Source of the DNA: Nitriliruptoraceae bacterium
Lineage (GTDB): Bacteria > Actinomycetota > Nitriliruptoria > Nitriliruptorales > Nitriliruptoraceae
Length of the DNA stretch: 48,697 nucleotides
Direction of reading: 5' to 3'
Assembly (NCBI GenBank): GCA_003561535.1
Contig: PWWI01000316.1
Coordinates: 1 to 48,697 of the forward strand
Shown: piece after piece, positions 22,252 to 34,570 of the stretch
Layout: each line of letters starts with the position of its first letter
How positions within the stretch are numbered: the first letter of the stretch is position 1
Position numbers and translations under genes: made by a program
The notes under the pieces: generated by a model
The model's input: the letters and a program-made list of their open reading frames with translations, nothing else
Told to the model about the DNA's origin: nothing
Database searches by the model: none

Positions 22252-22755
22252 TCACCTGCCGGGATGGTGCACGCGGTGGGGACCCCACGACCACCGCTGC
22301 ACGATCGGCTGGATCTGCCACGGGTGGGCGACGGCCCGCAGCACCGAGATCGTGGCGACGAGCACCACGCCGGCGGTCCCGGCCGCCGACAGCAGCATCA
22401 CCCCGGACAGGAACGCGGCGACCACTGAGACGGCCCCGAAGCTGACGATCGCGTCGAAGGGCACCTGCCGGCACCGGCGGGTCAGCACGACCGCGCCGAT
22501 CACCCGGCCCATCGACAGCGCGGAGGCCACGGTGACACCGAAGAGCAGGAACAGCCCCGAGGTGGCGGTCACCTCCGTCCAGCCGCCACCCGCCAGCACC
22601 AGCTCGACCAGTAACGCCGCCCCGAGGGTGACCGACACCACCTCGACGACCCCGGCGACCGGGGTGCGGCGCGCCGGGTCCCGCAACCGCCACGCCAGCG
22701 TCAGCAGCGCGAGCGCCGTCACCAGTGGGATCGTCACCTCGAACCGCGTCACCAT
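22252..22755 (-). CDS. Small multi-pass membrane protein, 167 aa
   Basis: About four hydrophobic segments are visible: VTIPLVTALALLTLAWRL, VVEVVSVTLGAALLVELVL, LFLLFGVTVASALSMGRVIGAVVL and VSVVAAFLSGVMLLSAAGTAGVVLVATI, in order through residues 6-140. The last 25 residues are Trp/His/Arg-rich (WQIQPIVQRW, HRVHHPGR). No family recognised. GCGGAGGCGG precedes ATG 22755; GTG 22752 is spaced even better and could be the true start. The longer start at 22815 is less likely. Divergent from dusB. Confidence 0.55.
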   Translation of the reverse strand: MVTRFEVTIPLVTALALLTLAWRLRDPARRTPVAGVVEVVSVTLGAALLVELVLAGGGWTEVTATSGLFLLFGVTVASALSMGRVIGAVVLTRRCRQVPFDAIVSFGAVSVVAAFLSGVMLLSAAGTAGVVLVATISVLRAVAHPWQIQPIVQRWSWGPHRVHHPGR

Positions 22756-22835
22756 CCGCCTCCGCAACTCTCGCCTGCTGCCCGCCGCAACCCAGGATGC
22801 CACCTCGACGTCCACGACGGGCGCCCGATCGGCGG

Positions 22836-22841
22836 TAGCGT
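22836..22841 (+). promoter_or_regulatory. Candidate -10 box (TAGCGT) for a leaderless or near-leaderless dusB mRNA
   Basis: The box ends nine bases before ATG 22851 and there is no ribosome site between (CCTATTGGC). A start 6-8 bases after the -10 box would fall at or next to the initiator ATG. Confidence 0.4.
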
Positions 22842-22850
22842 CCTATTGGC

Positions 22851-24011
22851 ATGCCGACCACCTCCGCGCCGACCCACCGCCCCAGGCTGACCCTGGGACG
22901 TCTCGAGCTGTGGCCGCCGGTGGTGCTCGCTCCCATGGCGGGTGTGACCAACGTCGCCTTCCGATCGCTGTGCCGGCGTCACGGCGGCGGGCTGTACGTC
23001 TCGGAGATGGTGGGAGCCCGAGGTCTGCTCGAGGGTGACGCCCGCTCGCGGCTGAAGGCCGCCTTCGGTCCGGACGAGACGCCGCGCTCGATCCAGCTCT
23101 ACGGGACCGACCCGGCCGACACCGCGGCGGCGGTCCGGCTCCTGGTGGCGCCGGAGGCCGACAGCGCCCGAGCCCCGGTCGACCACATCGACCTCAACTT
23201 CGGGTGTCCCGCGCCCAAGGTGACCCGTCACGGTGGAGGGGCGGCGCTGCCCTGGCACACCGACCTCTACGCCGACATCGTCGCGATGGCGGTGGCCGCC
23301 GCCGGTGAGGTGCCCGTCACCGTCAAGCTGCGGCTGGGCATCGACGACGCGCACCTGACCTACCTGGAGGCCGGTCGCATCGCCGAGGACCTGGGCGTCG
23401 CCGCCGTCGCGCTGCACGCCCGCACCGCCGAGGACCGCTACGGCCCGCCGGCCGCCTGGGAGCACATCGGCCACCTGGTGGACGCGCTCACGGTCCCCGT
23501 GCTCGGCAACGGCGACATCTGGGAGGCCGCCGACGCGCTGCGCATGCAGGCCGAGACCGGCTGCGCCGGCGTGGTCGTCGGCCGTGGGTGCCTGGGGCGC
23601 CCGTGGCTGTTCCGCGATCTGGCCGCTGCCTTCGACGGGCGCCCGATCCCACCTGCGCCCCGGCTCGGGGAGGTCGCCGACCTGCTCGTCGAGCACGCCG
23701 GGCTGCTGGCCGACCACCTCGGCACCACGACCGGGCTCCGGGAGCTGCGCAAGCACACCGGCTGGTACCTCCAGGGCTTCCCGGTCGGCAAGCCACTGCG
23801 GCGCGCGCTCCACCAGGTCAGCACCCTCGACGAGCTCCGGCACCTGCTGTCCGACCTCGACCGCGATCTCGCCTTCGACGAGTCGATCCGGCGGCAACCT
23901 CGGGGCCACACCACCCGGCCCAAGCGGGTGATCCTGCCGATGGGCTGGCTGGCGACCCGTTCCCACGGCACCAGCCGCTCCCCCGACGGCGCGGTGGTCT
24001 CCGGTGGCTGA
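22851..24011 (+). CDS. dusB: tRNA-dihydrouridine synthase, DusB type, 386 aa
   Basis: FMN TIM-barrel enzyme that reduces uridines in tRNA with NADPH. Marks: VVLAPMAGVTNVAFRSLCR at the start of the barrel, QLYGTDP, DLNFGCPAPKVTRHGGGAAL with the catalytic Cys119, VTVKLRLG, ALHARTAEDRYGPPAAWEHI and VLGNGDIWEAADA followed by VVVGRGCLGRPWLF for FMN phosphate binding. The C-terminal RNA-binding helical domain contains LRELRKHTGWYLQGFP. ATG 22851 lacks a ribosome site (see the box upstream). Its last eight bases overlap maf, a pairing that suggests one operon. Confidence 0.95.
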   Translation: MPTTSAPTHRPRLTLGRLELWPPVVLAPMAGVTNVAFRSLCRRHGGGLYVSEMVGARGLLEGDARSRLKAAFGPDETPRSIQLYGTDPADTAAAVRLLVAPEADSARAPVDHIDLNFGCPAPKVTRHGGGAALPWHTDLYADIVAMAVAAAGEVPVTVKLRLGIDDAHLTYLEAGRIAEDLGVAAVALHARTAEDRYGPPAAWEHIGHLVDALTVPVLGNGDIWEAADALRMQAETGCAGVVVGRGCLGRPWLFRDLAAAFDGRPIPPAPRLGEVADLLVEHAGLLADHLGTTTGLRELRKHTGWYLQGFPVGKPLRRALHQVSTLDELRHLLSDLDRDLAFDESIRRQPRGHTTRPKRVILPMGWLATRSHGTSRSPDGAVVSGG

Positions 24012-24594
24012 GCCACGGTTGGTGCTGGCCTCGGGGAGTCCTCGCCGGGCCGACCTGCTGGCCCGGCTCGGACTCGATCCCGAGATCCGGCCGGCCGCGG
24101 TCGACGAGACGCCGCTCGCCGGCGAACCGCCGCTGGAGCTGGTGGTCCGCCTCGCCGACGCGAAGGCCCGGGCCGTGCAGCACCCGACCGCCGACGAGGT
24201 CGTCCTGGCGGCCGACACGATCGTGGTGCTGGACGACCAGGCGCTCGGCAAGCCCCGCGACGACGCCGAGGCCGCAGCGATGCTCCGGCGGCTGTCGGGC
24301 CGGACCCACGAGGTCCTGACGGCGCTGGCGGTCCACCGGGGAGCACGGCACCACCGCACCACGGTGACCACCCAGGTGCGCTTCCGGGCGCTCACCGACA
24401 CCGAGGTGGCCTGGTACCTGGCGACCGGGGAGCCGCGGGACAAGGCCGGCGCCTACGCCCTGCAGGGCGCGGGGGCAGCGCTCGTCGACCACCTCTACGG
24501 GAGTGACACCAACGTGATCGGGTTGCCCCTGGCCGCCACGGTGCAGCTGCTGCGACGCGCCGGGCTGGACGTGCTGACGCCACCGGAGATCTGA
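24004..24594 (+). CDS. maf: Maf-family nucleoside triphosphate pyrophosphatase, 196 aa
   Basis: Housecleaning enzyme that hydrolyses non-canonical or pyrimidine nucleoside triphosphates to monophosphates. Marks are LVLASGSPRRADLL at residues 6-19, the acidic VDETPL, VLAADTIVVLDDQALGKPRD and GEPRDKAGAYALQGAGA with the base-contacting Lys and Gln; length is normal. The GTG start lies in the end of dusB. It ends ten bases from a convergent membrane protein gene. Confidence 0.95.
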   Translation: MAEPRLVLASGSPRRADLLARLGLDPEIRPAAVDETPLAGEPPLELVVRLADAKARAVQHPTADEVVLAADTIVVLDDQALGKPRDDAEAAAMLRRLSGRTHEVLTALAVHRGARHHRTTVTTQVRFRALTDTEVAWYLATGEPRDKAGAYALQGAGAALVDHLYGSDTNVIGLPLAATVQLLRRAGLDVLTPPEI

Positions 24595-24604
24595 GGGCGC
24601 AGGG

Positions 24605-25351
24605 TCAGCCTGCTCGGCCGTAGCCCTCGCCGAGACTGCTGCCTTCGCCTTCGGAGCCGCCATCCCGCTCATCCACCGACCCAGCGTCGGCGTCGTCATG
24701 GGATCGCCGGGACCAGGCGGTACGGGCCCAGGCGACGAAGCGCTCGGCCTGCCGGTTCGCCCACACGTGGACATCGCGGGCCCACTCGTACTCCCGCGCC
24801 AGGATGGCGATGCCGGCGACGGCCGTGAGCGCGCCGGGACCGGGCAGGAAGGGTGAGGCGAAGGCGAGGCTGACCAGCAGCACGAGCCCCCCGACGACGG
24901 TCACCCACACCCGCCGGGCGTGGTCCTTGACACCCCTCGGGACCGGCGGCAGTGGCGAGGTCTTGCTCGGGTCGAAGGTCTCCGGGGCGCCGACGTTCTG
25001 ACGGACCAGCGCCGACAGCACGCGGCCGGCAGCGCGCGAGCGGGCACGGGTGGTCAGCGACAGCTCGGCCATGACCTCCTCGCCGTCACCGTTGAGGCGG
25101 ACCCCGACGGTCTCCGGGGTCGCCCGATCGAGGTCGAAGCGCACCAGCGAGCCGAGCTGGGTGTGGGTGTCCGCCACGCTGGGGCTCGCGATGTGGAGCA
25201 GGCAACGCTGGTCGGTGACCACGAGCACCGCCGGTGCCCGGACCCCGGGCACCTTCGCGTGCGCCCAGGCCAGGAGGGATTCATCGCCGTCGAACTGGGA
25301 GCGCAGGGGACCGAGCACCAGCCCTTCCCGGAAGCGTGCGACAGGTCCCAT
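24605..25351 (-). CDS. PGPGW/TIGR02611-like two-helix membrane protein, 248 aa
   Basis: Residues about 145-185 carry the family core: RRVWVTVVGGLVLLVSLAFA, then SPFLPGPGALTAVAGIAILA and REYEWARDVHVWANRQAE, which matches the actinobacterial putative transmembrane PGPGW proteins. In front lies a soluble domain of about 130 residues (VLVVTDQRCLLHIAS, SLVRFDLDRATPETVGVRL) that resembles a PH-like strand set. The C-terminus is acidic and Ser/Gly-rich. Function unknown. TAAGCT at 25363-25358 on the minus strand ends six bases before the ATG with no ribosome site, so the mRNA may be leaderless. Confidence 0.72.
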   Translation of the reverse strand: MGPVARFREGLVLGPLRSQFDGDESLLAWAHAKVPGVRAPAVLVVTDQRCLLHIASPSVADTHTQLGSLVRFDLDRATPETVGVRLNGDGEEVMAELSLTTRARSRAAGRVLSALVRQNVGAPETFDPSKTSPLPPVPRGVKDHARRVWVTVVGGLVLLVSLAFASPFLPGPGALTAVAGIAILAREYEWARDVHVWANRQAERFVAWARTAWSRRSHDDADAGSVDERDGGSEGEGSSLGEGYGRAG

Positions 25352-25508
25352 GGAGGCAGCTTACGGGCCGGGTCCGACACCTCAGCGTCCAGCGGACGGT
25401 GGCCGCGCTCGCCGGCGTGCTTGAGTCGCACGACCACGACGCCTACTGGGACGACCCACCATCTGCCCGCTAGGTTCCCCCACCGACCGGGTCTGCCCCA
25501 GCCTCGGG

Positions 25509-25553
25509 CCGCACCGCCCGCACCGCCCGCGCAACCCGCACAACCCGCACAAC
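25509..25553. repeat. Five tandem 9-bp repeats in the leader of the NlpC/P60 gene
   Basis: CCGCACCGC twice, CCGCGCAAC, then CCGCACAAC twice, ending directly at the GAGG ribosome site (25554-25557). Preceded by a TAGGTT box at 25471-25476. Confidence 0.75.
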
Positions 25554-25561
25554 GAGGTGAC

Positions 25562-26980
25562 GTGAGCCGCACGCGACGCAGCATCCCCGTCCTCCTGGTG
25601 ATCGCCCTCACGGCGACCCTGCTGGCACCGATGGCCAGCGCGGAGCCGGACACCAGCCGGCTCCAGCAACTGCAGCGGGAGCTCCGGCAGCTGGAGGGGC
25701 AGGCATCCGAGCGTCGCTCGGAGCTCGGCGCGCTGGACGCACAGGAGAGCCGGCTCAGCAACGAGCAGGCCGCGGCCCAGGTCCGCCTGGAGGAGATCGA
25801 GGCTGAGCTGAGCCTCGCCGTCGAGCGCTACAACGAGGCCGTCGTCGCCCTGGAGGCGGTCCAGGCCGCACGGCAGGCCACCCTGGACGAGCTTGCCGAA
25901 CTCGACGCGGAGATCACCGTCCTGAGCGGCACCGTCGCCGATCATGCGCGCCGGCTGCACAAGATGGGTCCGTCGCTGGAGTTCGCGGTCGTCGTCGGAG
26001 CGAGCGATCCCGCCGACATCGGCTTCCGGTCCGCATCGCTGCGCCAGATCATCAGCGCCGATCAGGTCAACCTCCAGCGACTGGGGGCCGCCACCGACCG
26101 TGCGGCAGCCCTGGAAGCGCGGCTGGTCGTGCAGGAGGCCGAGGCCGCTGCGCTGGCCAGTGAGGTCGAGGAGCAGCTGCTGGCGGTCGAGCAGCTGTTC
26201 GAGGACCGGGCCGAGGAGCTCGCTGAGCTCGAGGCGACCCTGGCGGACGTGCGCGAAGAGGTCAGCGAGCAGCAGACACGCCTGGAGGCGGACGAGGAGG
26301 CCGTGGTCACCGCCCGGCAGGCCGTCGCCACCGAGCAGCAACGCGTCGAGGAAGAGCGCCGCCGGTTGGAGGAGGAGCGCCGCCGACAGGCCGAGGCGGA
26401 ACGTCAGGCCGAAGCGGAACGTCAGGCCGAAGCGGAACGTCGGGCAGAGGCGGAACGTCGGGCAGAGCGGCAGCGGCAGCAGGAGGCCGCAGCTACAGCC
26501 GCGAACACGTCCTCGAGCAACTCCTCCAGCAACTCATCCAGCAACTCCTCCAGCAGCTCCTCCAGCAACTCCTCCTCGAGCAACTCCTCCTCCAGCAGCA
26601 GCTCCCCCGCCCCGGCGCCGGCCCCCTCCACCCGCCGGTCAGCGGATGTGGCGGTCTCGACGGCGCTGGCCCAGGTCGGCAAGCCCTACCTGTGGGGCGC
26701 GACCGGACCGAACGCCTTCGACTGCTCGGGGCTGACCTCCTACGCCTGGCGTGCCGCCGGGGTGACGATCCCGCGCACCTCCGGGGCGCAGTTCGCCGGC
26801 CTGCGCAAGGTCACCAGGGCCCAGCTGCAACCCGGTGACCTCGTGTTCTACAACTCGCCGATCAGCCACGTCGCGATGTACGTCGGCGGTGACACGATCG
26901 TCGAGGCGTCACGCAGCGGGATCCCGGTGCGCACCGCGAGCCTGTCGGCACGCAGCCCGGTCGGCTACGCCCGCCCCTGA
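25562..26980 (+). CDS. Secreted NlpC/P60 peptidoglycan endopeptidase with coiled coil (RipA-like), 472 aa
   Basis: A Sec signal (basic TRRS, then VLLVIALTATLLAPMASA, cut near residue 27) leads into about 270 residues of Glu/Gln/Ala/Leu-rich coiled coil, including (QAEAER)n-type repeats at the end. A low-complexity Asn/Ser linker of about 45 residues and a Pro/Ala hinge follow. The last 115 residues are the catalytic domain: DCSGLTSYAW (nucleophile Cys), SHVAMYVG (His) and the polar residue after it. It cleaves peptide stems in the cell wall; the coiled coil probably anchors or autoinhibits it, as for RipA/CwlO-type enzymes. GTG 25562 has GAGG four bases upstream. Confidence 0.93.
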   Translation: MSRTRRSIPVLLVIALTATLLAPMASAEPDTSRLQQLQRELRQLEGQASERRSELGALDAQESRLSNEQAAAQVRLEEIEAELSLAVERYNEAVVALEAVQAARQATLDELAELDAEITVLSGTVADHARRLHKMGPSLEFAVVVGASDPADIGFRSASLRQIISADQVNLQRLGAATDRAAALEARLVVQEAEAAALASEVEEQLLAVEQLFEDRAEELAELEATLADVREEVSEQQTRLEADEEAVVTARQAVATEQQRVEEERRRLEEERRRQAEAERQAEAERQAEAERRAEAERRAERQRQQEAAATAANTSSSNSSSNSSSNSSSSSSSNSSSSNSSSSSSSPAPAPAPSTRRSADVAVSTALAQVGKPYLWGATGPNAFDCSGLTSYAWRAAGVTIPRTSGAQFAGLRKVTRAQLQPGDLVFYNSPISHVAMYVGGDTIVEASRSGIPVRTASLSARSPVGYARP

Positions 26981-27014
26981 TCTGCTGACGCCGGGTCGGT
27001 CCAGCAACGGCCGT

Positions 27015-27020
27015 TACGCT
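27015..27020 (+). promoter_or_regulatory. Candidate -10 box (TACGCT) of metZ
   Basis: GTTACGCT, 35 bases before ATG 27056. Confidence 0.35.
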
Positions 27021-27055
27021 GCCGGCACCGACCACCACCGCCGTCAGGAACCACG

Positions 27056-28261
27056 ATGTCCGACCCGTCCTCCCCGGACGGCGATCCGTCGGCTGACTGG
27101 GCACCCGACACCATCGCGGTGCGCGGCGGGACGGTCCGCAGCCGCTTCGAGGAGACCTCCGAGGCGCTGTTCCTGACCTCCGGGTTCGTGTACGGCTCGG
27201 CGGCGGAGGCCGCCGCCGCCTTCGCCGGCGAGCAGGACCGCTACATGTACAGCCGGCTGCGCAACCCGACGGTGGCGATGCTCGAGGAGCGGCTCCGCCG
27301 GCTGGAGGGTGCGGAGGCCGCCTGGGCGACGGCCAGCGGGATGTCGGCGGTGTTCAACGCCCTCGCGGCCACCCTGCGTTCGGGTGACCGCGTCGTGGCC
27401 GCGCGGGCGCTGTTCGGCTCCTGTTTCCAGGTGCTCGACCAGATCCTGCCGCGCTGGGGGATCCACACCGAACTCGTCGACGGCACCGACCTCGAGGCCT
27501 GGGAGCAGGCGCTGGCGACACCGGCCCGCGCGGTGTTCTTCGAGACCCCCTCCAACCCGATGCAGGAACTGGTCGACATCGCTGCGGTCAGCGAGCTCGC
27601 CCACGCCGCGGGTGCCCGGGTGATCGTCGACAACATCTTCGCCACCCCGGTCCTGCAGCACCCGCTGGCGCTCGGAGCGGACGTGGTCGTCTACTCCACG
27701 ACCAAGCACCTCGACGGCCACGGCCGCACCCTCGGAGGGGCGATCCTCGGTCCGGCGACCTTCATGGAGGACGAACTCCAACCGCTGATGCAGCACACCG
27801 GCCCGACCATGAGCCCCTTCAACGCCTGGGTGGTGCTCAAGAGCCTCGAGACGCTGCGGCTCAGGGTCGAGCACCAGACCGCCACCGCGTACGAGCTGGC
27901 GAGGTGGCTGGAGACCCACCCCAGGGTGGACGGCGTGCGCTACCCGCTCCTGGCCTCCCACCCCCAGCACGAGCTGGCGCGGCAGCAGATGGCCGGGGGC
28001 GGCTCCATCGTGACCTTCTGGGTCCCGGGCGGCACCGAGCGGGCCTTCGCGGTCCTCGACGCGCTCGAGATCATCGACATCTCCAACAACCTCGGGGACG
28101 CGAAGTCGCTGGCGACCCACCCGGCGACCACCACCCACCACCGGATCGGACCGGAGGTGCGGGCTCAGATGGGGGTCGGCGACGGGGTGATCAGGATCTC
28201 GGTCGGGCTCGAGGACCCGACCGACCTGCAGGGCGACCTTGACCGGGCCCTGTCGGGGTGA
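27056..28261 (+). CDS. metZ: O-succinylhomoserine sulfhydrylase (Cys/Met metabolism PLP enzyme), 401 aa
   Basis: PLP-dependent trans-sulfuration family enzyme. Marks: YSRLRNPTVAMLEERLRRLEGAE, ATASGMSAVFNAL (cofactor phosphate), FFETPSNPMQELVD, VIVDNIFATPVLQHPL and the Schiff-base lysine K217 in YSTTKHLDGHGRTLGG; the HLDGHGR run after Lys favours the MetZ (O-succinylhomoserine sulfhydrylase) branch over cystathionine gamma-synthase. C-terminal VGDGVIRISVGLEDPTDL is also typical. It makes homocysteine from sulfide for methionine synthesis. AGGA precedes the ATG at fair spacing. It appears monocistronic. Confidence 0.9.
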   Translation: MSDPSSPDGDPSADWAPDTIAVRGGTVRSRFEETSEALFLTSGFVYGSAAEAAAAFAGEQDRYMYSRLRNPTVAMLEERLRRLEGAEAAWATASGMSAVFNALAATLRSGDRVVAARALFGSCFQVLDQILPRWGIHTELVDGTDLEAWEQALATPARAVFFETPSNPMQELVDIAAVSELAHAAGARVIVDNIFATPVLQHPLALGADVVVYSTTKHLDGHGRTLGGAILGPATFMEDELQPLMQHTGPTMSPFNAWVVLKSLETLRLRVEHQTATAYELARWLETHPRVDGVRYPLLASHPQHELARQQMAGGGSIVTFWVPGGTERAFAVLDALEIIDISNNLGDAKSLATHPATTTHHRIGPEVRAQMGVGDGVIRISVGLEDPTDLQGDLDRALSG

Positions 28262-28343
28262 GGGCGGCTGCAGACCGGCTCGGATGGTTGACGCGACGGG
28301 CTCGGTGACGGACGATGCCGCATCCCGAACGAGCGAGGGTGCG

Positions 28344-28532
28344 ATGCGCCTCAAGACCCCCCGTCGCCACGACCGCGAGCAGCAGGTCGAGTACGGACCC
28401 GACGGTTACGACCGTCACGGGTTCAACCGCGCGGGACTGCACCGCGACACCCAGGATCGTTACGGACCCGACGGGCGCGACCAGGACGGCGAGCCACGAG
28501 CCTCCCGGCTGCCGCTCCTGCGCTGGCACTGA
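28344..28532 (+). CDS. Small hydrophilic protein with YGPDG repeats, 62 aa
   Basis: Highly charged and Asp/Arg/Gly-rich. Two related units, QVEYGPDGYDRHGFNRAG and QDRYGPDGRDQDG, lie at about residues 14-31 and 37-49. Such Tyr-Gly-Pro-Asp-Gly runs recall short tandem repeats of unknown role in bacterial proteins. GAGGG sits five bases before ATG 28344. No membrane segment or signal. It lies between metZ and the beta-propeller gene on the same strand. Confidence 0.5.
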   Translation: MRLKTPRRHDREQQVEYGPDGYDRHGFNRAGLHRDTQDRYGPDGRDQDGEPRASRLPLLRWH

Positions 28533-28636: not shown

Positions 28637-29944
28637 ATGCGGCTCAGCTCCCGCTCGCTCACGCTCTCGCTGCTGCTGACCGCTCTCGCGGTCGCGGTCG
28701 TGGCGGGCGCCATCGCGCTGGTCGGCGGTGGGTCGACGGCGCCGGTCATCGCGGCCGGACCGTCCGAAGCCGACGCGGCCGACGCCGTCGGGGGTGACGA
28801 GCCCCGGCCCGAGCCCCCACCCGAGCCTGCCGACGAGCCCGACCCGGAACCGGCCCCGGACCCCGATGACGAGGAGGACGACGGCCTCGAGGCCGAGGAG
28901 GAGGCGTCGGAACCTGCCGAACCCGTGCTGCCCCCGGGCCCCCCGAGCGACGAGCGCACGTTGTCGGTGGCCAGCCAGATCGGGGGCGACATCTCGCCGA
29001 AGTCGGTGGTGGCCTCACCCGGCGGGTTGTTCCTGGCCCAGAACATGATGTACCGGCACACCATCACCGTCTACGACCGTGACCAGGAGCTGCTCGCCAC
29101 GATCGCCGACACGGTCAACCCGGCGTCGTTCGGCCTGCCAGGTCCCGATGCGGACGTCCGCGGGGCCCCCGTCGAGGCCGCCTTCACCCCCGACGGCCGC
29201 TACGCCTACGTGTCCAACTACGCGATGTACGGCCCCGGCTACGACCGCCCCGGGACCGACACCTGCAGCCCTGCCGACGGCTACGACGACAGCACCCTGT
29301 ACCGCGTCGACCTCGACGCGCTCGCGATCGACCAGGTCATCCCCGTCGGCTCGGTGCCCAAGTACGTGGCCGTCCCCCCCGACGGCTCCACGGTGCTGGT
29401 GACCAACTGGTGCAGCTACGACCTCAGCCTCGTGGACGTGGCCACGGGCACCGAGGTGGAGCGCCTCGACCTCGGCCGCTACCCCCGGGGCATCGCGATC
29501 ACGCCGGACGCTGCCACCGCCTACCTCGCGCTGATGGGCACCTTCGACGTGCTCGTCCTCGACCTCGAGGACCGGTCGCTCGACCGCTTGTCCGGGATCG
29601 GTCGCTCGCCCCGCCACCTCGTGCTCTCCCCCGACGGCGACACGCTCTACGCCACGCTCAACGGCGAGGGGGTGGTCGCCCGCATCGACCTCGCCACCGA
29701 GGAGGTCATCAAGATCACCACGGGCGAGGCGCCGCGCAGCATGGACATCGCCGCCGACGGGCGCTCGCTGTACGTCGTGAACTACTTCTCCGACACCGTC
29801 AGCAAGGTGCGCACCTCGGACATGACCGTGCTGCAGACGATCGACGTCGCCAACAAGCCGATCGGGATCACCTACGACCGCGGGACCGGCCAGGTGTGGG
29901 TGGCGAGCTACTCCGGGGTGCTCACGGTGCTCGACGACCGCTGA
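28637..29944 (+). CDS. Membrane-anchored YVTN/YncE-like beta-propeller protein, 435 aa
   Basis: An N-terminal anchor or signal (residues 8-30, LTLSLLLTALAVAVVAGAIAL) is followed by an acidic Pro/Glu/Asp-rich linker to about residue 105. The rest forms repeating blades with YVTN-type cores: DGRYAYVSNYA, PDGSTVLVTNWCSYDLSLVDV, PDAATAYLALMGTFDVLVLDL, PDGDTLYATLNGEGVVARIDL, ADGRSLYVVNYFSDTVSKV and GQVWVASYSGVLTVLDD, about seven in all. Such proteins sit outside the membrane and often bind partners; no enzyme motif is seen. Its last 23 bases overlap the convergent GTPase gene. Confidence 0.85.
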   Translation: MRLSSRSLTLSLLLTALAVAVVAGAIALVGGGSTAPVIAAGPSEADAADAVGGDEPRPEPPPEPADEPDPEPAPDPDDEEDDGLEAEEEASEPAEPVLPPGPPSDERTLSVASQIGGDISPKSVVASPGGLFLAQNMMYRHTITVYDRDQELLATIADTVNPASFGLPGPDADVRGAPVEAAFTPDGRYAYVSNYAMYGPGYDRPGTDTCSPADGYDDSTLYRVDLDALAIDQVIPVGSVPKYVAVPPDGSTVLVTNWCSYDLSLVDVATGTEVERLDLGRYPRGIAITPDAATAYLALMGTFDVLVLDLEDRSLDRLSGIGRSPRHLVLSPDGDTLYATLNGEGVVARIDLATEEVIKITTGEAPRSMDIAADGRSLYVVNYFSDTVSKVRTSDMTVLQTIDVANKPIGITYDRGTGQVWVASYSGVLTVLDDR

Positions 29945-31553
29945 CCAGCGTCGCGAGCGCCGCCCTGAGCGCCGAGGTGGCGGCCACCTCGGTGTCGTAG
30001 GGGGCGACGAGGTGGTCGGTGACGACCTGCGTGAGCCGTTCCCGCAACCGCCGGGTGGTCCGGGACCGGACCCTGCGACCGGCGACACGCAGCAGCGCAC
30101 GGGTCACCAGCCCCAGCAGCACCCGCACGGCGAGACCGGCCAACAGCAGCGCCGCTGGCCAGCTGAGCTGGTCGGTGAGCTGGGGCGGGGTCGGCTCCGG
30201 GAGCCCCAGCCAGGCGATGGCGCGCAGCAGCACGAGCCAGGCGAACCCGACCACGGCGGTGGCCTCGGCCAGCCCCCGCGCTGCCGCCATCGCCGACCAC
30301 CAGCGTCGCCGCTCGGCCGTGATCTCGTCGGCCACGCTGCCCACCGCTGCGACCACCTGCGGCGCCGCCTGCCCAGCGGCCTGCTCGACGGCGCGGTCCA
30401 GGCCCGCGTAGCTGTGCCCCACCGTCGAGGCGAGGTCCACCTCGTCGGCCAGCCGGCGTGCGAGGGTCTCGTGGGTGCGCGCCGTCGCCTGGCGGTCCGA
30501 GGTGTCGGCGGCGCCGGCCCCGAACCCGAGCCCCCGGCCGAACCTGGCCGCGAGCTTCACCGGCGCCAGGACCATCCGCGCCAAAGGTGACCGAGTGGCC
30601 TGGCGAGCGGCGGCGCGCTGCTCGAGCTCGGCGGCGGCAACGACCCGGTGGCCGTCGGCCGCGTCGATCGCCGCCTCGACCAGCGGCGGCACCGCGACGG
30701 GTGTGACCGGCAGGGTGGGTGTCCGCGTCAGGACGTCCTCAGCGACCACCGCGGCGTCGGCCGCCAGGCGGGCCACGACGGCCTGATGCTCGCGCGCGAG
30801 GTCGGCGAGGTGGTCGGCGAGCGCCGGGATGCCCTCGCCGGTGGCCGCGGAGGTGAGGTGGACCACAGCGGCGCCCAGCCCGTCGGCCTCCAGACGCCCC
30901 GCGAGGTCCTCCCGCAGCCGGCCGACGTCGTCCGCCTCGAGCTCATCGCAGCGGTTGAGGACCACCGTGACCACCTCGGCGTGGGCGCGCAGGCTGGCCA
31001 GCGCGCCCTCGTGGAGGTCGGCCCGGGCGTACTTCACCGGGTCCACGACGACCGCCAGCACGTCGACCCGGGCAGCCAGCCGCTGGCTCGTGGTGCGGTG
31101 CAGTTCGGCGACGGAGTCGTGGTCGGGGAGGTCGACCAGGACCAGCCCGTCTGGCAGGGCACCCGGGACCTCCCGCCGGTCGTCGATGGCGAGCCAGTCC
31201 AGCAGCCGACGCGTCGGTGCATCGAGGCTCGAGGTGATGGCCACCGGGTGGTCAGTGGTCGGACGGCGGACCCCCTCGACCACGACCTCGGCGCCGGCCA
31301 GCCGGTTCGCCAGCGCGGACTTGCCGACCCCGGTACCACCGGCCAACGCGGCGACCGTGATGCCGTCACCGAGCTCCAACCGTTCGCGCACGTGGTCGCG
31401 GAGCTCGCGGAGCCGATCGACGTCCTCGTCGGGGCAACGGCCCGCCGCCAGCTCGACGGCGGTGTCCAGCGCAGCGTGCCATGGCGCCGCCGGCGCGATG
31501 TGGTCGACGCCCTCGCCAGGGAGGGCCGGCGCGGCGCGATCGGAGGCGCTCAC
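29922..31553 (-). CDS. Dynamin-like/YfjP-type GTPase, downstream partner, 543 aa
   Basis: G1 is GGTGVGKSALANR (Lys78), G3 is DLPDHDS near residue 138 and G4 is NRCDEL near 200, a small change from NKxD. The region after the G domain is helical, and about residues 420-490 hold two hydrophobic segments (ATAVVGFAWLVLLRAIAWLG and AALLLAGLAVRVLLGLV). This G-domain-plus-late-membrane layout matches bacterial dynamin-like proteins. Its ATG overlaps the stop of the next GTPase gene (ATGA, four bases), so both are translated together. In Streptomyces a two-gene DynA/DynB pair stabilises FtsZ rings during sporulation; similarity of layout suggests, but does not prove, the same group. Confidence 0.82.
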   Translation of the reverse strand: MSASDRAAPALPGEGVDHIAPAAPWHAALDTAVELAAGRCPDEDVDRLRELRDHVRERLELGDGITVAALAGGTGVGKSALANRLAGAEVVVEGVRRPTTDHPVAITSSLDAPTRRLLDWLAIDDRREVPGALPDGLVLVDLPDHDSVAELHRTTSQRLAARVDVLAVVVDPVKYARADLHEGALASLRAHAEVVTVVLNRCDELEADDVGRLREDLAGRLEADGLGAAVVHLTSAATGEGIPALADHLADLAREHQAVVARLAADAAVVAEDVLTRTPTLPVTPVAVPPLVEAAIDAADGHRVVAAAELEQRAAARQATRSPLARMVLAPVKLAARFGRGLGFGAGAADTSDRQATARTHETLARRLADEVDLASTVGHSYAGLDRAVEQAAGQAAPQVVAAVGSVADEITAERRRWWSAMAAARGLAEATAVVGFAWLVLLRAIAWLGLPEPTPPQLTDQLSWPAALLLAGLAVRVLLGLVTRALLRVAGRRVRSRTTRRLRERLTQVVTDHLVAPYDTEVAATSALRAALATLVSGRRAP

Positions 31554-33244
31554 CCGCCACCCCGGCGGTGCTCGTCCAGGGCCGCCACCACCTGCCGGGG
31601 CGGCCGGGCGGCGCCGATCGCGTCGTCGAAGGGACGGCGCTCGGCGGCGGTCGCCCCGGCGACGCGACGCTGCAGGTCGGCGCGCATCTCCTCAAGGAGC
31701 CGGTTGACGTTGTGCTCCCCGAGCAGCTTGGTCAGCAGCCACTGGCTGGCCGCGGCCGCGCCGGCCGCGATGCCCACCTCGCCCGCGGTCAGACCGCCGG
31801 AGACGGTGAACAGCACCAGGATCGCCGAGGTGGCCACGGAGTTGATCGCGAGCGTCGCCCGCTGGGCCCGGGCCTTGCGGGGTGCCCCGACCTCCTCGAT
31901 CAGGGCGGTGGTGGCGGCCTGCCAAGCATCGATCATGCTGCGCAGGGACCGTTGGCGGTCGCTGGCGGCCTCCCGAAGGCGGGGGTGGCGCTCCAGCAGG
32001 TGCACCCCCGCCCGGTCGGCCTCCAGATCGCGGCGGGTCGCGACCGTGGCCCGCTCCAGCAGGCGGTCGATGATCCGGACGAGCTCGTCACCGACCTCGG
32101 CCTGGACCTGCTCGGCCCGGCCGCTGGCGGCGAGCCCCAGACGGTCGCGCACGAGCCCTCCCAGCTGGGTCGCGGTGGTCTGCACCTTCAGCAGCAGCTC
32201 GTTGCCACCGACCAGCCGCCGCCAGCTGTCCAGCACCTCGGCCCTCAGCGACAGTCCGGCCTCAAGCTCGGCCTCGAGCCCCGGGGCCACCTCGGCGAAC
32301 CGGGCCTCCACCAGCCGGTCGAGGCGATCGGCGTGCTCGAGCTCCTCGCGGACCGCCCGGTCGATCGTCGCCAGCTCCGAGGGCACCGCCGCGGCCAGAC
32401 CGGCCAGGGCCCGGCGACGGATCTCGCGGCGCTGCTCGATTGGTGCGAGCGAGGCGAGCCAGTCGCTCAGGGGCGCGACGGTGGAGGCAGGCAGCTGGTC
32501 GTCGACCACCTCGGTGTGCTCGATGCCGAACAGGCGATCCAGGTGGACGCCCTGGTCCTCGATCAGCCGGGCGGCGTCGGCGAGCAGCTCGTCGCGCTGC
32601 CCCGTGGGGAGCTGGGTGACGGCTACTGCGAGCAGCGCCTGCCGGCGCTCGGCGCGGCGCAGGTAGCTCATACCGACCTCGTCGGCGTAGGTCCGCGCGG
32701 TGGCGAGCCACACCCACACGTCGGCGGCGTCGAGGGCCTGGTCGGCCAGCCACCGGTTCGCGTGCTCCACCGAGTCGATGTCGGGGGTGTCGAGCACCGC
32801 GACACCGGCGGGCAGGGCAGCGCTGCTGGCCAGCAGCAAGGTCCGCTCCCCCACCGCCTGCGCCGCCTTGGCGGCCTCCACCCGCACCAGCCCCTCGAGG
32901 ACCCGTGCCGAGGCGAACCACCCGTGGTCGTCCGGGTGGCAGACCACGGTCGGCAGCCGGGTCGTCGGCCGGACCACGCCGGCCGGCGCGACCGGCTGGG
33001 CCGCGAGGGGGTTCACGGTCGTGGACTTGCCCGCACCGGACCCGCCGCCGACCACGACCAGCAACGGGGCGTCGGGCTCGGCTGCCCGGGTACCCACGCC
33101 GCGCAGCAGTCGCGCCACCCGGTCCCGTTCCCGGGCGAGCTCCGGACCGGCCGAACCGGACAGCACGAAGCCGAGCCGGTCGAGGGCGTCGGCCAGCGCG
33201 GACAACGACCGGGAGCGGTCGTCGGTCCGGTCCTGCGCGGTCAT
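31550..33244 (-). CDS. Dynamin-like GTPase, first gene of the pair, 564 aa
   Basis: G1 is GGGSGAGKSTTVN (Lys73), followed by RPTTRLPTVV for the G2 region and VLDTPDIDS for G3; the usual NKxD is replaced by VTQLPTGQ. The helical part is long (about residues 210-560) and includes a hydrophobic stretch NSVATSAILVLFTVSGGLTAGEVG near 480-505. It is thus a membrane-associated, dynamin-type partner of the gene downstream. ATG 33244 is chosen over the in-frame start at 33397 because the extra residues look untranslated. Divergent from an alpha/beta hydrolase gene, sharing a 204-base region with several GC-rich hairpins. Confidence 0.82.
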   Translation of the reverse strand: MTAQDRTDDRSRSLSALADALDRLGFVLSGSAGPELARERDRVARLLRGVGTRAAEPDAPLLVVVGGGSGAGKSTTVNPLAAQPVAPAGVVRPTTRLPTVVCHPDDHGWFASARVLEGLVRVEAAKAAQAVGERTLLLASSAALPAGVAVLDTPDIDSVEHANRWLADQALDAADVWVWLATARTYADEVGMSYLRRAERRQALLAVAVTQLPTGQRDELLADAARLIEDQGVHLDRLFGIEHTEVVDDQLPASTVAPLSDWLASLAPIEQRREIRRRALAGLAAAVPSELATIDRAVREELEHADRLDRLVEARFAEVAPGLEAELEAGLSLRAEVLDSWRRLVGGNELLLKVQTTATQLGGLVRDRLGLAASGRAEQVQAEVGDELVRIIDRLLERATVATRRDLEADRAGVHLLERHPRLREAASDRQRSLRSMIDAWQAATTALIEEVGAPRKARAQRATLAINSVATSAILVLFTVSGGLTAGEVGIAAGAAAASQWLLTKLLGEHNVNRLLEEMRADLQRRVAGATAAERRPFDDAIGAARPPRQVVAALDEHRRGGG

Positions 33245-33448
33245 CGGCGTGCCTGCGTCGAGGTGGACGGGGAGGGGAGCATGGCGCCCACGGACAGCCA
33301 AGCAGCCCAGCTGGCGTGGTGCTGCCCCGGGGACCGGCCCCGGAGGACCTCCGTCGCTACCGAGCTGGCCGGAGCGCCGGCGCGCCCGAGCCGGCATGCT
33401 GCGACGTGTCGGGTCCCCGGACCACCGACGACGTCGGAGCCCACCCTG

Positions 33449-34570
33449 ATGACCTCAGCCCGCATGCTCAGGGTCATCGCGGCCGTGGTGCTCGCGGGCC
33501 TGGTGGTGGGTGCGGCTGGCCCGGTCACCCTCAGGCTCGTGGCGCTGGCCAGCGTCGCCGACGGGCTCGGGTTCGACCCACCCCGGCCCATGGCCCCCGA
33601 GGTGGTCCGCGAGCCGGGGGTGCTGGGTGGGGTCGAGGTGGACCGCTACCGGCCGGTGGCCGCCGAGCGCCGCGGACGGCTCCCTGACAACGTGACCATC
33701 TCGACACCACGAGCGCTCTCGCGGCCCGCGGTCGTGCTGCTGCCCGGCGCGACCCCGCCGGGCCGGGACGATCGCCGCGTGGTCGCGATCGCCACGGCCA
33801 TCGCTCGGGCCGACCGGGTGGTGCTCGTCCCGGAGCTCGAGGTCTACGACGAGCAGCTGCTGCCCGCCGACATCGAACGGATCACCGACGTGGCCATCGC
33901 CGCCGCGGCCGAGCAGCCGGGGGTGGTGCTCGCCGGGCTGTCCTTCGGCGGCAGCCTGGGCATGATCGCCGCCGCCGACCCCAGGCTCGACGACCGGGTG
34001 CGCCTGGTCGCCACCTTCGGTGCCTACGCCGACCTCGCCGGCGTCGTCCAGGCGGTCACCACGGGGATCTCGCTGGTCGATGGGGACCGCATCAGCTGGG
34101 ACCCTGACCCCCGGGCGGGCGACGTGGTCCGCGAGCAACTCCTCGGCCTCCTCGACCCCGAGGACCGCGCGCAGGTCACCGAGGCCCTCGACGACGACCT
34201 CGCCGTCACCGAGCTGCGTCCCGAGCTCCGCGCGGTCCACGACCTGCTGACCGACCCCGACCCGGCCCGCACCTTCGACCACCTCACCGCAGCGCCGGTG
34301 CGGGTGCAACAGCGGATCGCCGAGGTGTCCCCGGTCCGTGCCGCACCGCGGCTCGCCGCCCCGCTGGTCAACCTCCACGCGGTCGACGACCCCGTGATCC
34401 CGATCGGGGAGCAACGACGGTTCGAGGCCAGCTACCCGCAGACCCGCACCATGGAGCTGACCACCTTCGACCACGTCGGGCTCACCGACCAGGAACACGG
34501 ATGGTGGGTGACGGTGCAGGATCTGTGGCAGACCGCCCGGTTCGTGCACGCGATCCTCGACGCTCGGTGA
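33449..34570 (+). CDS. Membrane-anchored alpha/beta-hydrolase, 373 aa
   Basis: A hydrophobic N-terminus (residues 7-30, LRVIAAVVLAGLVVGAAGPVTL) works as a signal or anchor. Then VVLLPGATPPGRDD gives the oxyanion turn, VLAGLSFGGSLGMIAA the nucleophile elbow (GLSFG, Ser near residue 164), HAVDDPVIP a likely acid and FDHVGLTD the His. The fold is that of serine esterases or dienelactone-hydrolase-like enzymes; substrate unknown. GGAG lies before ATG 33449 with nine-base spacing. A perfect 11-bp hairpin follows the gene. Confidence 0.82.
   Translation: MTSARMLRVIAAVVLAGLVVGAAGPVTLRLVALASVADGLGFDPPRPMAPEVVREPGVLGGVEVDRYRPVAAERRGRLPDNVTISTPRALSRPAVVLLPGATPPGRDDRRVVAIATAIARADRVVLVPELEVYDEQLLPADIERITDVAIAAAAEQPGVVLAGLSFGGSLGMIAAADPRLDDRVRLVATFGAYADLAGVVQAVTTGISLVDGDRISWDPDPRAGDVVREQLLGLLDPEDRAQVTEALDDDLAVTELRPELRAVHDLLTDPDPARTFDHLTAAPVRVQQRIAEVSPVRAAPRLAAPLVNLHAVDDPVIPIGEQRRFEASYPQTRTMELTTFDHVGLTDQEHGWWVTVQDLWQTARFVHAILDAR

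Follow-up and report, generated by a model that had tools for sequence, protein, structure and literature searches.

Does a pair of overlapping genes for dynamin-like GTPases in an actinobacterium of the class Nitriliruptoria correspond to DynA and DynB of Streptomyces, and does such a pair imply a role in sporulation? We addressed this question for contig PWWI01000316.1 of a Nitriliruptoraceae bacterium (GenBank assembly GCA_003561535.1), analysed over positions 1 to 48,697 of the forward strand; this whole stretch of 48,697 nucleotides is called the window. An earlier note on this DNA had described a two-gene operon at positions 29922-33244, and two complete minus-strand open frames do lie there, overlapping each other. 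They are called gene A and gene B below, with lengths in amino acids (aa):

31550-33244, minus strand: gene A, probable DynA-type dynamin-like GTPase, 564 aa; open frame with an ATG start at 33244 and its stop at 31550-31552
29922-31553, minus strand: gene B, probable DynB-type dynamin-like GTPase, 543 aa; open frame with a GTG start at 31553 and its stop at 29922-29924
31550-31553, minus strand: A/B overlap, read directly as GTGA, in which GTG is the start of B and TGA the stop of A

Relation of the pair to Streptomyces DynA and DynB

A tree, reciprocal searches and shared gene order place the window pair with an A/B-type pair of Streptomyces, and together they therefore indicate orthology to the one such pair found in five Streptomycetaceae genomes; the resemblance to DynA/DynB proposed in the earlier note, for which it had suggested phylogeny as a check, thus holds. 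Judging from sequence, the Streptomyces pair is very probably DynA/DynB itself, and we consider it likely that A and B form an orthologous membrane-GTPase pair of the DynA/DynB type. In S. venezuelae, DynB is listed as vnz_12105 (dynAB) in the published account (PMC8748795).

In each of the five Streptomycetaceae genomes, the A profile matched exactly two places at an expectation value (E) of ≤1e-5, namely the A gene itself (E 3.5e-84 to 9.8e-81) and, next to it, B. In the reverse direction, the A protein of Streptomyces hygroscopicus found the window's A as its best match in the window's own genome (E 2.2e-44), and its B protein found the window's B (E 1.1e-32); in both searches the next match was the partner gene. 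Identity to 19 Streptomyces proteins each was 33-34% for A and 32-35% for B. A scan of named genomes identified at least 531 relatives, and the best 80 loci were kept (the Streptomyces set); all are from Streptomyces except one from Kitasatospora and one from a record named only “Actinobacteria bacterium.” In Streptomyces sp. Act143, the Dynamin_N domain matched only A and a 343-aa frame of Era size.

The tree comprised 59 G domains, with 26 A rows, 28 B rows (one gene appears twice) and five outgroup rows (Era, HflX and three other dynamin-like proteins); 54 of 57 named family rows were used, and Der, Cj-DLP and IniA are absent from the tree. The B alignment covered 16 of 20 B loci, including that of the window. 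Support was 99/99 for the A group, and for the B group it was 97/88 against every other row and 99/99 when the five outgroup rows were left out. Each group holds its own Streptomycetaceae copies, apart from the partner, and the joined A+B group has support of 95/87.

As in Streptomyces DynA/DynB, the window's genes are adjacent on the same strand with A first, and B carries two membrane segments, predicted from hydropathy for the window's B; however, no ssb gene was found downstream of the window's B. The junctions also differ. In the Streptomyces-set junctions listed, the conserved part of B starts about 330-1060 bases past the A stop, versus 16-80 bases in 18 loci of the window's class; B of the Streptomyces set therefore has a long, variable N-terminal extension, which the window's B lacks.

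The earlier note had given the overlap as ATGA, which the GTGA of the sequence corrects. An ATGA is present at the start of A itself (33244-33241), at the end of a 116-aa minus-strand frame (33241-33591), and it may be the source of that reading. Among the 18 A/B junctions of the window's class (its own included), 14 have a start codon at the -4 position (12 GTG, 1 TTG, 1 ATG), and in the remaining four the overlap is 8 or 13 bases; of 99 junctions in total, the rest of which are from Streptomycetaceae, 27 have a -4 start. A scan of positions 29800-33700 for promoter and terminator consensus sites found none, and because shuffled sequences also gave next to none, the scan is uninformative. Since bacterial dynamin-like genes are mostly paired in operons (PMC6104087), the layout of A and B alone is ordinary.

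Domain family, membrane segments and fold

The G domains of A and B are different, as the earlier note had recognised. Both carry a G1 P-loop; A exceeds the Pfam cut-off for Dynamin_N (31.8 bits versus 27), whereas B exceeds those for RsgA_GTPase (31.6 versus 30) and MMR_HSR1 (27.6 versus 21.9) and lies just under that for Dynamin_N (26.5 versus 27). No NCBIfam model reached its cut-off for either protein, and the Era and Der models matched B weakly, far below theirs. These scores for B are what favours an alternative in which B is a soluble ribosome-assembly GTPase resembling Era, Der or HflX and A is an unrelated neighbour. Against it, the A and B profiles match each other, with the match confined to the G domain (probability 99.5, 215 columns), and the genome's own Era and HflX fall outside the joined A+B tree group, a comparison that does not include Der.

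Hydropathy was calculated on the Kyte-Doolittle scale, with one threshold for all proteins compared. Late hydrophobic segments, which the earlier note had reported for both genes, were recovered in both:

30102-30272, minus strand: B, two predicted membrane segments at residues 428-451 and 466-484 (hydropathy; the predicted structure has helices at 385-448 and 464-538)
31739-31858, minus strand: A, hydrophobic hairpin with conserved GGLTAGE at about residues 463-502 (hydropathy segment 463-492, and motif)

At this threshold Era and HflX have no hydrophobic segment, unlike B with two; the three other dynamin-like proteins also have none. The hairpin motif ([GA]G[LI]T[AGT][AG]E) occurs in all 23 A proteins outside the Streptomyces set, counting that of the window, and in none of the 77 inside it, so that the window's A keeps a GGLTxGE hairpin that its Streptomyces counterparts lack. 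Despite having no hairpin motif, 69 of these 77 carry a different hydrophobic segment within their C-terminal part. Because of these 69 and of the three dynamin-like proteins without a segment, hydropathy alone is not diagnostic. In published accounts, DynB is membrane anchored, interacts with DynA and co-localises with FtsZ (PMC5827413; PMC8748795), and it has two transmembrane segments (PMC8748795); the segments and the motif pattern found here fit a membrane anchor that interacts with DynA.

The predicted structure of B has a mean predicted local distance difference test score (pLDDT) of 67 and a predicted template modelling score of 0.50, and it consists of a G domain followed by long helices (385-448 and 464-538). 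The top Foldseek matches of this model were Cj-DLP1, IniA, EHD2 and mitofusin 1. VIA-align aligned it to mitofusin 1/Fzo1 with Z 18.7-19.8 over 264-286 residues, compared with 154-184 residues for the plain G domains listed. With moderate confidence, these comparisons suggest that B has a dynamin/mitofusin-like fold, and the model supports a G domain followed by a helical stalk with a membrane-binding tip. Searches of PDB sequences with the profiles gave weak matches, mostly to the G domain.

Each of the nearest known structures resembles the pair in some respects and differs in others. Campylobacter Cj-DLP1/Cj-DLP2 (5owv) is likewise an operon pair of different dynamin-like proteins (PMC6104087), yet Cj-DLP1, the best Foldseek match of B, has about 12% identity to it and is outside the tree sample. 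Mycobacterial IniA (6j72/6j73), the second Foldseek match, is an actinobacterial dynamin-like GTPase; however, it has 16% identity, aligns over its whole length only at a very high root-mean-square deviation and is also outside the tree sample. Mitofusin 1/Fzo1 gave the best structural alignment of B but has 13-15% identity and acts in eukaryotic mitochondrial fusion.

That the best structural matches of B are dynamin-like proteins is a further point against a soluble ribosome-assembly GTPase. The tree, the hydropathy and the fold contradict that identity for B, and we regard this alternative as extremely improbable. Clustering with soluble Era/EngB-like GTPases, together with a lack of membrane segments, was the outcome that the earlier note had set against its own proposal; neither appeared in the tree, the hydropathy or the Foldseek results.

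G motifs and the asymmetry between A and B

The motif counts cover 100 A and 134 B stretches, of which 77 and 80, respectively, come from the 80-locus Streptomyces set. Stretches had to reach the profile start, score >150 bits and span ≥200 residues, and incomplete copies were left out; among the B stretches, some genes are counted twice, as they lie in two loci, and a few Streptomyces copies come from outside the 80-locus set. The motifs of the window's proteins, all on the minus strand, are as follows:

33020-33049, minus strand: A, G1 P-loop GGGSGAGKST, residues 66-75; Lys in 100/100 A stretches
32771-32791, minus strand: A, G3 DTPDIDS, residues 152-158, with Asp in place of the Gly of DxxG; Asp in 100/100 A stretches
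32606-32617, minus strand: A, G4 position TQLP, residues 210-213, lacking Asp; fourth-position Asp in 1/100 A stretches
31311-31340, minus strand: B, G1 P-loop GGTGVGKSAL, residues 72-81; Lys in 134/134 B stretches
31113-31133, minus strand: B, G3 DLPDHDS, residues 141-147, with Asp in place of Gly and then His; Asp in 134/134 and His in 125/134 B stretches
30945-30956, minus strand: B, G4 NRCD, residues 200-203; Asn and Asp in 134/134 B stretches

The G3 consensus is DxPDxDS with small variation in both proteins, and Gly is replaced by Asp in every stretch. After this Asp, 125 of 134 B stretches have His, and all 100 A stretches have Ile or Val; His at this place recalls EF-Tu, and a hydrophobic residue recalls other dynamins. 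At G4, the first position in A varies by lineage (Thr in 19, Asn in 3 and Asp in 78 of 100), and the sole A stretch with a G4 Asp, in L024, reads TRVD. The earlier note's remark that A lacks a normal NKxD is therefore correct (A reads VTQLP, and B has NRCD), and the asymmetry extends across the family. Because all 134 B stretches have the G4 Asp and 99 of 100 A stretches lack it, an unequal partnership between A and B is plausible from these sequences. Elsewhere in the same genome, a second dynamin-like protein (L001, contig C54, minus strand, 683-aa frame) has a normal G3, DTPG.

A broader reading, which we hold tentatively and at slightly below an even chance, is that an inequality between the two GTPases is built into the entire DynA/DynB family, that A gates B as a pseudo-GTPase or non-guanine sensor, and that Streptomyces has lost the hairpin of A. 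Both partners would have exchanged the gamma-phosphate-sensing Gly of G3 for Asp; B would keep the guanine-reading G4 and, in most cases, a His at the catalytic position, and A would have lost the G4 Asp. A rival to this asymmetry, though not to orthology, is that A and B are equally active GTPases and the G4 of A is a variant guanine reader. The TRVD of L024 and the invariant P-loop Lys of A speak for it, as does eukaryotic dynamin, which has Thr at the first G4 position; however, only 1 of 100 A stretches has the guanine-reading Asp, the first position changes among Thr, Asn and Asp with lineage, and we consider equal activity rather unlikely. A literature search of limited coverage encountered no title on A/B motif asymmetry, so we make no claim that it is unpublished. 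The fixed asymmetry leads to a simple prediction, namely that nucleotide turnover would occur in B.

Distribution, neighbourhood and possible function

We searched 61 genomes, comprising the window's own and 60 relatives. At E ≤ 0.001, A matched in 34 genomes and B in 39. A cut-off of E ≤ 1e-20 for co-occurrence, chosen after the lists were inspected, drops the weak A match of G022 and the weak B matches of G011, G012, G013, G022, G024 and G032; these six B matches are probably Der-type GTPases. At this cut-off A and B occur together in 33 genomes (the window's own included), neither occurs in 28, and no genome has just one of the two. The top A and B matches of each of the 33 are adjacent on one contig and strand with A first, a few copies being cut by contig ends. 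The best identity to other genomes is 89% for A and 55% over the full length for B. No A match was found in 14 of the 33 genomes that are ≥90% complete, which suggests that the pair is accessory. Among 118 genomes drawn from the phylum (the window's own and a high-completeness remainder), B matched in 27 at E ≤ 1e-12, eight of them from the window's class; in one genome of this draw, B is 82-95% identical to B of the 80 named loci kept, which identifies the phylum as Actinomycetota. Viral contigs searched with a Streptomyces-type B protein contained no relative. Genome G047 has apparent extra, diverged A/B copies (contig C1, about 1815875-1818780, and contig C4, 12792-14794).

In sporulating Streptomyces, DynA and DynB stabilise Z-rings, and DynB binds SepX, SsgB and SepF2; DynB with SepX is also reported from unicellular actinobacteria outside Streptomyces (PMC8748795). 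The earlier note's link to sporulation septation is not supported by comparison with these partners and with the distribution of the pair. Searches for the SsgA/SsgB family gave matches in G111 and in the two Streptomyces genomes examined. They gave none in G166, which has the pair, or in any of six genomes tested from the window's class, one of them the window's own genome (81% complete); in addition, the pair is missing from the 14 near-complete genomes mentioned above. SepF is present in the window's own genome. The SsgA-family gene of G111 lies on contig C1 at 1205458-1205745; this genome belongs to a family other than that of the Streptomyces-like genomes and has the A/B pair.

Because the SsgA family was not found in the six class members, SepF is present and the neighbour genes are as described below, we favour a role in bracing the membrane, at the septum or more generally, without sporulation; a part in division specifically is modestly probable. 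The main rival is a general machine for membrane repair or tethering under envelope stress, like Cj-DLP1/2 or IniA, with no special tie to division. The patchy presence of the pair, Cj-DLP1 and IniA as the best Foldseek matches of B, and the SsgA family not found in the six class members all agree with such a machine, as does the Campylobacter pair, which tethers membranes and whose knockout had no obvious division defect (PMC6104087). However, the window pair groups with the Streptomyces pair and not with the three other dynamin-like proteins (in a tree without Cj-DLP and IniA), and no recognisable stress gene is among the four neighbours scanned; we judge repair or tethering to be rather unlikely.

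Several observations weigh against a DynA/DynB-type pair acting at the septum. The outgroup branches of the tree are long, and the equation with DynA/DynB, which is very likely, rests on the detection of a single A/B-type pair; a further dynamin-like pair is present in Streptomyces sp. GQFP. The B model has a mean pLDDT of 67, and its Foldseek template modelling scores are low (0.20-0.33 by query length, among the matches listed); behind the dynamin-like proteins, it also matches many plain G domains. The predicted structure of A (mean pLDDT 44) was too poor for a structure search and was left unused. No known Z-ring gene is among the four neighbours scanned with Pfam, one of which encodes an NlpC/P60 wall hydrolase, and A and B are the only genes shared by all 16 neighbourhoods compared, that of the window among them.

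Conserved neighbour genes were accordingly rejected as a clue. Pfam identified the four neighbours as a beta-propeller protein, a pyridoxal phosphate (PLP) enzyme, the NlpC/P60 hydrolase and one without a match. The end of B overlaps convergently, by 23 bases (29922-29944), the plus-strand beta-propeller gene at 28637-29944 (Lactonase/YNCE-like in Pfam). Frames at 22752-28405, over the genes for the NlpC/P60 hydrolase (24920-26980) and a PLP enzyme of Cys/Met metabolism (27056-28261), have counterpart frames close to the pair in two congeneric genomes (L187 and L199), which points to wider synteny within the genus. After B, a frame of one cluster is present in four of the 16 neighbourhoods (two Streptomyces, G111 and G166; coordinates L083 9603-10313 and L197 7074-7781) and not after the window's B; two of the four frames were translated, and the one scanned with Pfam is a single-strand DNA-binding protein (SSB).

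We infer the following scheme for the favoured septal or membrane-bracing role. A, as the DynA ortholog, and B, as the DynB ortholog, would probably be translated at a matched ratio from the overlapping genes and would pair as a heterodimer through G domains, stalks or both. B would enter the membrane with a hairpin of two helices, located at the end of its helical stalk, and, having a complete G4 base-recognition motif, may be the main nucleotide-cycling partner. A, lacking the G4 Asp, may bind nucleotide loosely or promiscuously and serve as a structural or regulatory partner; in this lineage a glycine-rich hydrophobic hairpin would give it a membrane contact of its own. Together the two proteins would curve, tether or brace the membrane, most probably beside the Z-ring at the division septum, which is the arrangement in Streptomyces, but with no sporulation programme.

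Since DynB outside Streptomyces has already been published (PMC8748795), its occurrence here is in itself unsurprising. Finding a pair of the DynA/DynB type in an actinobacterial class distant from Streptomyces, where an SsgA-family partner is apparently missing, suggests that the sporulation role known from Streptomyces may be a specialisation of an older membrane function.

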